A DNA stretch of 64,000 nt from Agrococcus jejuensis. GTDB taxonomy: Bacteria; Actinomycetota; Actinomycetes; Actinomycetales; Microbacteriaceae. How positions within the stretch are numbered: the stretch's first letter is position 1; the number at the start of each line of letters is the position of its first letter. Under the pieces are notes generated by a model. That model saw nothing but the letters and a program-made list of their open reading frames with translations, searched no databases and was not told where the DNA came from. Made by a program: the position numbers and the translations under genes. This document shows positions 40,806 through 43,273 of the stretch, piece by piece. Location of the stretch: the NCBI RefSeq assembly GCF_900099705.1, contig NZ_LT629695.1, positions 1 through 64,000 of the forward strand, given 5' to 3'.

Positions 40806-41273
40806 TTGTCCGACGCGCCGGCACCCGCGACTCCCCCGCATCCGATCCCCTCCGACGTCGCTGCAGATCCGGGCGCGTCGTCGCTGCTCGGCGAGCGAGG
40901 CCGCGGCGAGCTCGCGGAGCGCATGGGCATCGAGTTCACGGAGCTCTCGGCGTCGCGCTCGGTCGCGACGATGCCCGCGGAGGGCAACCGGCAGCCGATC
41001 GGCCTCATCCACGGCGGGGCCTACTGCGTGCTCGCGGAGTCGCTCGGCTCGATGTCGGCGAACGCCCACGCCATCACGCTCGACCGCTACGCCGTCGGCA
41101 TCGACATCAACGCGACGCACACCCGCTCGGTGCGCTCGGGCACCGTGACCGGCACGTGCACGGCCGTGCACCTCGGCTCGACGATGACGGTGCACGAGAT
41201 CGTGATCACCGACGAGGCGGGCGCTCGCATCTCGACGGCGCGCATCACGAACCTGCTGCGCGAGCGCCGCTGA
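40806..41273 (+). CDS. Hotdog-fold thioesterase (PaaI/EntH type)
   Basis: A 155-residue acyl-CoA thioesterase-like protein. The hotdog signature IGLIHGGAYCVLAESLGS has the catalytic-position acidic residue in the helix. The start is TTG at 40806, chosen because GGAGG lies 6 nt upstream. The first 30 residues are Pro/Ala-rich and unlike the family. It runs divergently from polA with only 47 nt between starts. Its 3' end points into the repeat-bounded nuclease cassette. Confidence 0.85.
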   Translation: MSDAPAPATPPHPIPSDVAADPGASSLLGERGRGELAERMGIEFTELSASRSVATMPAEGNRQPIGLIHGGAYCVLAESLGSMSANAHAITLDRYAVGIDINATHTRSVRSGTVTGTCTAVHLGSTMTVHEIVITDEAGARISTARITNLLRERR

Positions 41274-41290
41274 CGCGTCCGCGTCGATCG

Positions 41291-41350
41291 ATTGGCCACT
41301 TCCTGCGGCGATTGGCCACTTTCTGCGGTGATTGGCCCCTTTCTGTAGGT
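41291..41350 (+). repeat. Three tandem 20-bp repeats, left array of the nuclease cassette
   Basis: Units at 41291-41310 (ATTGGCCACTTCCTGCGGCG), 41311-41330 and 41331-41350, each more diverged toward the cassette. They are the same repeat as the right array at 42474-42593 but in the opposite orientation. Confidence 0.9.
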
Positions 41351-41360
41351 GCGGCCCAGT

Positions 41361-41386
41361 CGATTGGTCCACAACTGGACCAATCG
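41361..41386. repeat. Left hairpin of the nuclease cassette
   Basis: CGATTGGTCCA-CAAC-TGGACCAATCG, perfect 11-bp arms, 4 nt beyond the stop of the nuclease gene. It may double as that gene's terminator. Its arms share the GATTGG core of the 20-bp repeat and match the right hairpin at 42424-42453. Confidence 0.85.
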
Positions 41387-41390
41387 ATCG

Positions 41391-42296
41391 TCATCGAGCT
41401 CCAGAGCCTGACCGCCGGATCGCGGCGCGAACCAGCTGCACGACCTTCCGCCCGCCGTCGTCCAGATCGCGAGCCGTGACACGCACGATCGTCCAGCCGG
41501 CCTGCTGCAGACGACGATGCCGATCGATGTCGAGCGCATACTGACGATCCTCGAGGCGATGCTGCTGGCCGTCGTACTCGACGCCGACGCGGAGCGCACG
41601 CCATCCCATGTCGAGCCGCCCGATGAACTCCCCGTCGTCGGTTCGCACGACAACCTGGAGCTCTGGCGCCGGGATGCCGGCTCGAACGAGCAGCAGGCGC
41701 AACCGCGTCTCGCGCGGCGACTCCGATCCCACGCGGATCGCGCCGAGTGCGCGACCCACTCTGCTCATCCCCCGCGCCCCTCGGAAGTGCTCCGTGTGCT
41801 CGGTCAGCTCTCCGATCGTCAGTCGATTCGAGCGCCCGGTCGCCACGATGGCGTCGCCGACGACCACCAGCTCGTCGTGGTCCAGCTCGCTGGCGACGTG
41901 CACGAAGCAATCCTCGAGCGACTCGACGGCGAAGCCGGCGACCTCGACCACGCGAGCCTTGATCCGATGGCCCACGACGCCCGGCCGGCGCATCCTGGCG
42001 GTGTAGGACGGCGACGCGACGTGGATGGGTACGAGCCTGATGCGTCTCGGCAGCGGGAGTCCATGGATCATCGCGGCGGTCGAGTGCGAGAAGAACTGGC
42101 GCGGGCGCTGCACGGCGAGCAGCGCCGCGAACAAGTCGTGGGCGGTATCGCCGACCGCCGACGGCAGTCGGACGCCCCGCGTCGGGGCAGCGAGCGTGCC
42201 GTCGCGCAGCGCATGCTGCGAGAAGCCGAGGTCTACGGCCTCGTGGACGGCGAACGCATCGAGTCGATGCGGGATGCGGGGGTCCGGTTGATGCAT
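41391..42296 (-). CDS. DUF559 (Vsr-like) endonuclease-domain protein with AbiEi-like N-terminus
   Basis: A protein of about 301 residues. The C-terminal 100 residues form a Vsr/DUF559 PD-(D/E)xK nuclease-like domain: VGVEYDGQQHR (Glu240, Asp242, His246), then DIDRHRRLQQAGWTIVRVT. The N-terminal half resembles the AbiEi/winged-helix proteins of actinobacteria (GFSQHALRDGT, then FFSHSTAAMIHGLPLPRR). The ATG at 42296 gives a family-like start but has no clear ribosome-binding site; in-frame sequence continues upstream through the hairpin and repeats and is unlikely to be coding. The gene is bracketed by paired hairpins and inverted repeat arrays. Its role is unknown; defence, homing and toxin-antitoxin functions are all possible. 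Confidence 0.78.
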   Translation of the reverse strand: MHQPDPRIPHRLDAFAVHEAVDLGFSQHALRDGTLAAPTRGVRLPSAVGDTAHDLFAALLAVQRPRQFFSHSTAAMIHGLPLPRRIRLVPIHVASPSYTARMRRPGVVGHRIKARVVEVAGFAVESLEDCFVHVASELDHDELVVVGDAIVATGRSNRLTIGELTEHTEHFRGARGMSRVGRALGAIRVGSESPRETRLRLLLVRAGIPAPELQVVVRTDDGEFIGRLDMGWRALRVGVEYDGQQHRLEDRQYALDIDRHRRLQQAGWTIVRVTARDLDDGGRKVVQLVRAAIRRSGSGAR

Positions 42297-42423
42297 CGCG
42301 CCAGCATGACCGCCGAGGTCGCGGTCGAGCCGACCGGCTCCGAACGCCTGACGATCCCGAGGTTGTGAGGGACGCGCAGGCCGCCAACTTCCGGGAACGC
42401 GTGACGCACCCGTAGGCGCAGAC

Positions 42424-42453
42424 GTCGATTGGTCCAGTTTCGGACCAATCGAC
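42424..42453. repeat. Right hairpin of the nuclease cassette
   Basis: GTCGATTGGTCC and GGACCAATCGAC, perfect 12-bp arms around a 6-nt loop. The arms are the same sequence as in the left hairpin at 41361-41386, so the pair can also act as inverted repeats bounding the gene. Confidence 0.9.
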
Positions 42454-42473
42454 GGGCGGACACCGACCTGACT

Positions 42474-42593
42474 TGGCCAATCACCGCAGGAAGTGGCCAA
42501 TCACCGCAGGAAGTGGCCAATCACCGCAGGAAGTGGCCAATCACCGCAGGAAGTGGCCAATCACCGCAGGAAGTGGCCAATCGACGCACGAAG
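42474..42593 (-). repeat. Six tandem 20-bp repeats, right array of the nuclease cassette
   Basis: Five units of TGGCCAATCACCGCAGGAAG (plus-strand sequence) are identical and adjacent from 42474 to 42573; a sixth, diverged unit follows at 42574-42593. Read on the minus strand the unit is ATTGGCCACTTCCTGCGGTG, the same as the left array, so the arrays are inverted relative to each other. There are no spacers, so this is not a CRISPR array. Confidence 0.95.
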
Positions 42594-42628: not shown

Positions 42629-43273
42629 TCAGCCCTTCTTGCCGTCGCCCAGCTGCTCGATGACGGCGCGGGCGACCTCGCCCATCGTCAGGCGGCGGTC
42701 CATCGACGCCTTCTGGATCCAGCGGAACGCCTCGGGCTCCGACAGGCCCATGCGCTGGCCGAGCAGGCCCTTCGCACGGTCGACGAGCTTGCGCGTCTCG
42801 AAGCGCTCGGCGAGGTCGGCGACCTCGGTCTCGAGCGCCTGGATCTGGTCGTAGCGAGCGAGCGCGATCTCGATCGCGGGCAGCAGGTCGTTCGGCGTGA
42901 ACGGCTTCACGACGTACGCGAGCGCGCCGGCCTCCGACGCGCGCTCGACGAGCTCCTTCTGCGAGAAGGCGGTGAGCAGCACGACGGGGGCGATCTTGCC
43001 CTCCGACAGCTTCTCGGCCGCCGAGATGCCGTCCATCTTCGGCATCTTCACGTCCATGACGACGAGGTCGGGCTTCAGCTCGGTCGCGAGCTCGACGGCC
43101 TTCTCGCCATCGCCGGCCTCGCCGACGATCTCGAAGCCGTTGTCCTGCAGCGTCTCGACGATGTCGAGGCGGATGAGCGACTCGTCCTCCGCGACGACGA
43201 CGCGGCGCCGGGTGCTGCTCGTGGCGGCCTCCGGCTCGGGGAGCTCGGGCTCCAGGAACGTGGCATCGGTCAT
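42629..43273 (-). CDS. pdtaR: ANTAR-domain response regulator (PdtaR-like)
   Basis: A 214-residue two-component regulator. The receiver domain has the acidic pair Asp30/Glu31 (VVVAEDESLIRLD), the phosphorylation site Asp74 (VVMDVKMPKMDG), Thr101 and Lys123. The C-terminal ANTAR RNA-binding domain follows (LVDRAKGLLGQRMGLSEPEA, then FRWIQKASMDRR). In mycobacteria PdtaR with the kinase PdtaS acts on transcripts by antitermination. No kinase gene is in this window. A TAGGCT box at 43280-43285 ends 6 nt before the ATG, so it is probably leaderless. Confidence 0.93.
   Translation of the reverse strand: MTDATFLEPELPEPEAATSSTRRRVVVAEDESLIRLDIVETLQDNGFEIVGEAGDGEKAVELATELKPDLVVMDVKMPKMDGISAAEKLSEGKIAPVVLLTAFSQKELVERASEAGALAYVVKPFTPNDLLPAIEIALARYDQIQALETEVADLAERFETRKLVDRAKGLLGQRMGLSEPEAFRWIQKASMDRRLTMGEVARAVIEQLGDGKKG

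Follow-up and report, generated by a model that had tools for sequence, protein, structure and literature searches.

The nuclease gene at 41391-42296 (reverse strand) of the 64,000-nt stretch of Agrococcus jejuensis DNA analysed here (the window) is bracketed by inverted copies of a repeat of its own, and such bracketing by a gene-specific repeat is common in the family. In several genomes the repeats are also dispersed between other genes, and gaps flanked by convergent genes are favoured. The gene encodes a protein with conserved catalytic-type residues and has long remained at the same locus, though some genomes have lost it. We consider it probable (roughly 0.6) that the gene makes up, together with the repeats beside it, a two-component, REPtron-like system, comparable to REP/RAYT pairs but based on an unrelated enzyme, in which the nuclease recognises and maintains its own repeats, and probably also spreads them, without the participation of a Y1 transposase. 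Weighing against this reading are, as detailed below, the loci that have no bracket, the absence of dispersal in one relative, the protein-repeat correlation that loses significance outside the genus, two bracketed genes of other kinds, the results on the F5 pattern and on the paralog P5, the divergent slots and the compared sites that have no repeat-related indel. In the mechanism that we propose, the cognate DNA of the nuclease would be the short repeat that flanks its gene on either side: the AbiEi-type head would bind the repeat or its hairpin; the Vsr/EDxHD-type nuclease would nick or cut the repeat; and repair or recombination would copy repeats to new intergenic sites, and would keep the two flanks of the gene alike.

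The window locus and its predicted nuclease

The locus carries, in this order, forward repeats, a hairpin, the nuclease gene, a second hairpin and reverse repeats, an arrangement described in the earlier note and confirmed here with small corrections (a degraded third unit on the left and five perfect units on the right). The left array (41290-41349, forward strand), downstream of the stop of a thioesterase gene (41273), includes three 20-bp units GATTGGCCACTTCCTGCGGY, starting at 41290, 41310 and, for the degraded one, 41330. The right array (42474-42593, reverse strand), downstream of the pdtaR stop (42629), runs in the opposite orientation through six 20-bp periods, with the perfect unit in 5/6 of them. 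The 3′ hairpin of the nuclease gene (41360-41387; stem TCGATTGGTCCA, 4-nt loop) is separated by 3 nt from the stop codon (41391-41393), and the 5′ hairpin (42423-42454; stem CGTCGATTGGTCC, 6-nt loop) lies 126 nt upstream of the ATG. Both hairpins had been noticed before, with stems given as 11 and 12 bp; the hairpins stand, and their perfect stems measure 12 and 13 bp, with DNA fold z values of -5.8 and -6.2 and a fold as good in 0/200 shuffles. Allowing up to 3 mismatches, the 20-bp unit had 7 matches in the window and none in 100 dinucleotide shuffles. The ends of the 1.3-kb locus, which had been called nearly mirror-symmetric, are indeed inverted copies (98 nt at 84%), and the locus lies, as proposed, between two genes convergent on it: a 4HBT thioesterase (ending at 41273, forward strand) and pdtaR, an ANTAR-domain response regulator (stop at 42629, reverse strand). 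No Rfam family matched the window locus up to E 0.1, and in the 15 other fetched loci only tRNAs exceeded the gathering score.

The reading frame of the nuclease gene is open further upstream, and its start is therefore inferred: the 301 aa are counted from the ATG where the conserved part begins, and the searches used positions 41394-42290. The C-terminal part scores 21.0 bits with the DUF559 model (cut-off 20.6), and its match to MTES_1575 is weak (30.7 against a cut-off of 38.2); the N-terminal part is weakly matched by AbiEi models. In the predicted protein the N-terminal half has the AbiEi fold, and the C-terminal nuclease has the EDxHD catalytic fold with its E-D-H-D residues, the closest nuclease fold being that of the homing endonuclease I-Bth0305I. 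The protein is thus predicted to consist of an AbiEi-like head joined to a Vsr/EDxHD homing-endonuclease fold, in agreement with the DUF559/Vsr-like nuclease and the AbiEi-like N-terminus recognised in the earlier note. A partial homolog (P0009, 74% identity) is labelled Burkholderia cenocepacia, and is perhaps a contaminant record.

Bracketing by private repeats in the genome and in the class

Five members of the nuclease family (P1-P5) were found by searching the genome of the window (G000, 3.40 Mb), and all five are enclosed by an inverted pair of repeats whose sequence is different for each: the window gene, P1, between repeats of the 20-bp unit family F1 (inverted alignment score 124); P2 (2880412) between GAGTGGTCACTTCCTGCCGC-like units (score 69); P3 (545827) between copies of GACTGGTCGCAGTTGCACC (score 166); P4 (2415103) between copies of a 50-bp hairpin, GTTGAGGTTTTCGGCCCGATG... 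(score 99); and P5 (997957) between copies of GAGGTGCGCTTGCTGCATT... (score 113). Cassettes with the same ends at unrelated loci had been named in the earlier note as possible support for its reading; what is found instead are four other paralogs only 34-49% identical, with other repeats. The family membership of P5 rests on its 34% identity to P1, and a Pfam search with this protein matched no family. Bracketing of 5/5 paralogs compares with 2/309 control genes scoring above 45 in a 400-kb stretch of that genome without a tblastn-detected nuclease (Fisher 9e-10; gene ends set two ways). These two bracketed non-nuclease genes are TfoX-like (score 107) and enoyl-CoA-hydratase-like (score 55; named by eye).

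The bracket of the TfoX-N gene (L299:13046-13381, corresponding to C1:1493046-1493381 of the genome) is made of another hairpin family, GCGTTTTGCAGGYGATTCCGG..., and no nuclease of the P1-P5 kind was found within the 400 kb that hold this gene.

Homologs of the nuclease are present in 89 of the 118 sampled genomes of the class, that of the window included, often with several per genome. The top loci of the protein search (L191-L219, 29 genomes; L202 was left out for its short flank) were scored against a bracket threshold of 35, the 99% level of 756 mismatched flank pairs: 19/28 top loci outside the genus exceed it, or 22/28 if direct matches count. Twenty further stretches were hand-picked from the homolog list for spread, with genes called by a simple ORF caller, as in the 400-kb stretches. 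With ORF-called ends, 12/19 targets exceeded 35 (7/19 at or below; L333 yielded no scored gene) versus 2/270 neighbouring genes; with alignment-based ends, 15/20 targets exceeded it and 5/20 were at or below. One of these loci (L325, genome G096) has a below-threshold score with alignment-based ends, yet lies between matches of the repeat pattern. In total, 54/69 loci are bracketed. The idea, already raised in the earlier note, of a nuclease tied to its own inverted repeats is thereby strongly supported; the 15/69 loci that have no inverted bracket above the threshold count against it.

In 400 kb of the relative G012, 353 genes were scored by their inverted flanks only, in a stretch centred on its known nuclease, which makes the test half-blind. 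The ortholog of the window gene ranked first (403); the second rank (93) was a DUF559 protein by Pfam (39.1 bits, cut-off 20.6) that had been missed by tblastn with P1-P5; and the third scored 46. Similarity between proteins was correlated with similarity between repeats across the 54 bracketed loci (rho 0.25, reached in 0/2000 permutations); for the 34 loci outside Agrococcus the value was lower and not significant (rho 0.13, 200/2000 permutations, Mantel test). Folding of one badly placed DNA stretch of L196 revealed nothing.

Outside the genus, 34 loci are bracketed. Their upstream copy starts 165 nt (median) ahead of the inferred start codon (120-240 nt in 30/34), and their downstream copy starts 12.5 nt (median) past the stop codon (at most 50 nt in 30/34). 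The upstream distance, together with the AbiEi fold in the N-terminal half of the predicted protein, would fit autoregulation only, in which the AbiEi-type head would bind the repeats beside its own gene as operators, the dispersed copies being ordinary duplications or decoys, and the nuclease domain acting elsewhere. AbiEi antitoxins bind inverted repeats. The downstream copy, however, occupies no place expected for an operator, and the dispersed copies in the window's genome are mostly non-coding and often located between convergent genes, so that we regard autoregulation as an unlikely explanation of the whole arrangement.

Persistence at one locus and comparison with known systems

The gene is syntenic in 16 of the 21 genomes examined at the locus, the window's included (the genus comprises 24 genomes), and inverted repeats surround it in 15/15 relatives fetched, with scores of 56-413. 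Most of these 15 orthologs have arrays of period 20 built from several different unit sequences (e.g. GAGTGGCGCCTCCCGCACCT). Five of the 21 genomes are gene-free at the locus; in G013 the thioesterase and pdtaR genes are 9 nt apart, the kind of relative that the earlier note had suggested looking for. In the gene-free L190 and L092, other hairpin-like sequences were seen by eye in the same intergenic slot. The midpoint-rooted tree of the two neighbour genes is compatible with a single gain plus two losses, or with three losses. Left and right flanks of the same genome had a median score of 127, and mismatched flanks a median of 34.5 (95%, 205); left-left scores include sequence of the neighbouring gene, so the direct left-right comparison (84/240) says little.

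Compared with G009, the nuclease is 65% identical and its two neighbours 96% and 99%. This far greater divergence of the nuclease, the existence of gene-free sites and the resemblance of its fold to I-Bth0305I are compatible with a homing-type selfish gene, whose nuclease would cut solo repeats and whose bracketed copy would then be used for repair, carrying the gene into them. Across much of the genus, however, the gene has kept the same position, and this long stay argues against recent homing. Moreover, each of the five paralogs has a different repeat, so there is no sign of a gene spreading into solo copies of its repeat. We judge homing to be rather improbable.

The closest parallel to such a nuclease-repeat pair is the REP/RAYT system. 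According to passages of the papers concerned, rayt genes are flanked by a pair of REPs in inverted orientation (PMC2817692), REPINs spread through extragenic DNA (PMC3116915), and RAYT genes are inherited vertically as single copies (PMC8049555). The features shared with the system described here are an enzyme gene enclosed by an inverted pair of short palindromic repeats, the extragenic dispersal of such repeats, repeat families that each go with their own gene, and vertical inheritance of the gene. The differences lie in the enzyme and in the repeats: RAYTs are Y1 enzymes (PF01797), whereas here a Vsr/EDxHD-like nuclease with an AbiEi-like head is found, in Actinobacteria, and the Agrococcus repeats are mostly tandem 20-bp arrays, with hairpins in the window. 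The search for the Y1 HUH transposase (PF01797) gave 0 matches in the window's genome and was positive in 5/14 control genomes; no RAYT was thus found in this genome, and the system is not a member of REP/RAYT.

Other known systems are more distant. EDxHD homing endonucleases (I-Bth0305I) and Vsr differ from the nuclease described here, which has a stable locus and its own flanking repeats; furthermore, no Rfam family, and hence no group I intron, matched at the locus up to E 0.1. In contrast to AbiE toxin-antitoxin systems, no AbiEii partner is present beside the window gene, whose neighbours are the thioesterase and the ANTAR regulator, and the AbiEi-like part is fused to a nuclease. CGTC-tagged REPs are dispersed palindromes said, in a passage of PMC3733652, to lack a dedicated transposase; the words Actinobacteria, Streptomyces and Mycobacterium do not occur in the main text of that paper. 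In the open-licence literature on DUF559 or MTES_1575 we found no role for these nucleases with flanking repeats. The single mention of MTES_1575 in PMC9879509 concerns a Borg protein that itself contains repeats, and is not relevant here.

Beyond the window, Vsr/EDxHD nucleases with AbiEi heads might drive dispersed palindromic repeats in Actinobacteria, as a second, independently evolved REPtron in which a metal-dependent nuclease, and not a tyrosine transposase, would propagate a private repeat family, several such pairs being possible per genome (five here). This wider proposal is tentative, and in our estimate falls a little short of even odds. Should every nuclease prove to be paired with a private repeat, this would account at once for an orphan enzyme family and for many of the intergenic repeats of high-GC bacteria. 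It would also add a second, independent case to the question of how a population of tiny repeats and the gene serving them are kept together in a bacterial genome. The likely substrate is named in advance by the repeat beside each gene, which makes the idea directly testable.

Dispersal and placement of the repeats

The F1 unit has 51 matches at up to 3 mismatches in the window's genome, those of the window included, compared with 1 for the reversed pattern, and many of these copies adjoin unrelated genes; the window hairpin has 7 sites, 2 of them in the window. Repeats common genome-wide beside unrelated genes are what the earlier note itself had named as evidence against its proposal of a 1.3-kb mobile cassette, and, with the gene syntenic in 16/21 genomes, that proposal is not supported. 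Other families, those of the paralogs, are dispersed in the same genome: F3 (99 matches, control 2) and F4 (52 matches, control 0); the F5 pattern was too loose (137 matches versus 175 for the control). Among 84,980 species genomes scanned, from which the window's genome is perhaps absent, the exact tandem pattern was found in only six stretches, all of A. jejuensis DE0131. A related pattern, searched in the 24 genomes of the genus, had 61 matches in the window's genome and 29 in G009; every other genome gave 0-6 (reversed control there, 0-1).

Dispersal was also observed in other genomes. In G096 the arm of the bracket hairpin has 138 matches (control 0), often in pairs 40 bp apart among the matches listed, and two listed nuclease genes, out of four matches, sit between repeat copies. 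Matches of the bracket repeat numbered 40 in G078, 43 in G112, 20 in G150 and 3 in G139 (controls 0), the own bracket of G139 being different from the pattern that gave its 3 matches. Solo copies scoring at least 40 numbered 1 in G050 and about 3 in G141, in 200 kb each (reversed controls 0). The units at the nuclease gene of G012 were found nowhere else in the 400 kb fetched, indicating that a bracket needs no dispersal and that dispersal is not universal.

Placement was analysed in 400 kb of the window's genome. Thirteen of its 26 non-coding repeat clusters lie between convergent genes, versus 28/180 gaps (p 2e-4); divergent slots were not significantly avoided (3/26 clusters versus 48/180 gaps, p 0.14); and 10/111 pattern matches fall inside called genes (the patterns overlap). 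In the same 400 kb, 5/6 F4 hairpins are no more than 5 nt away from the end of a called gene, and 4/6 have a TGA stop inside the hairpin arm; fifteen distinct F4 copies are 96% paired. These positions, the enrichment of convergent slots and the strength of the hairpins would suit plain bidirectional transcription terminators, two of which would insulate the nuclease gene because its expression is harmful; but terminators need no shared sequence on both sides, the brackets share more than a stem (arrays of 20-bp units included), and neighbouring genes are rarely bracketed (2/270 above 35), all of which makes this explanation highly doubtful. An IS21-type element with multiple terminal binding sites was rejected, since a second inverted pair of F1 arrays (1129926-1132722 of the window's genome) encloses open frames that resemble, by eye, ordinary genes; the two arrays of this pair were interpreted as independent repeats, one at each of two convergent gene ends. 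The region that they bound also contains an F3 array with a hairpin (L015:3297-3395).

As for the repeats that the nuclease would maintain and probably spread, six sites chosen for carrying F1 in A. jejuensis DE0131 were compared with their counterparts in the window's genome. One site carries F4 instead of F1 in the latter, array length differs at 1/6 sites, and no repeat-related indel of at least 25 nt was found at 4/6.

A further dispersed repeat, CAGCTGGTCGAGGAG..., to which no nuclease is assigned, was seen in C1:1100001-1500000 of the window's genome (L280-L299), where its 14-mers recur in as many as 16 intergenic regions. The F4 sites found (27/27) are located between 0.76 and 2.81 Mb of the 3.40 Mb, which looks like avoidance of part of the chromosome.
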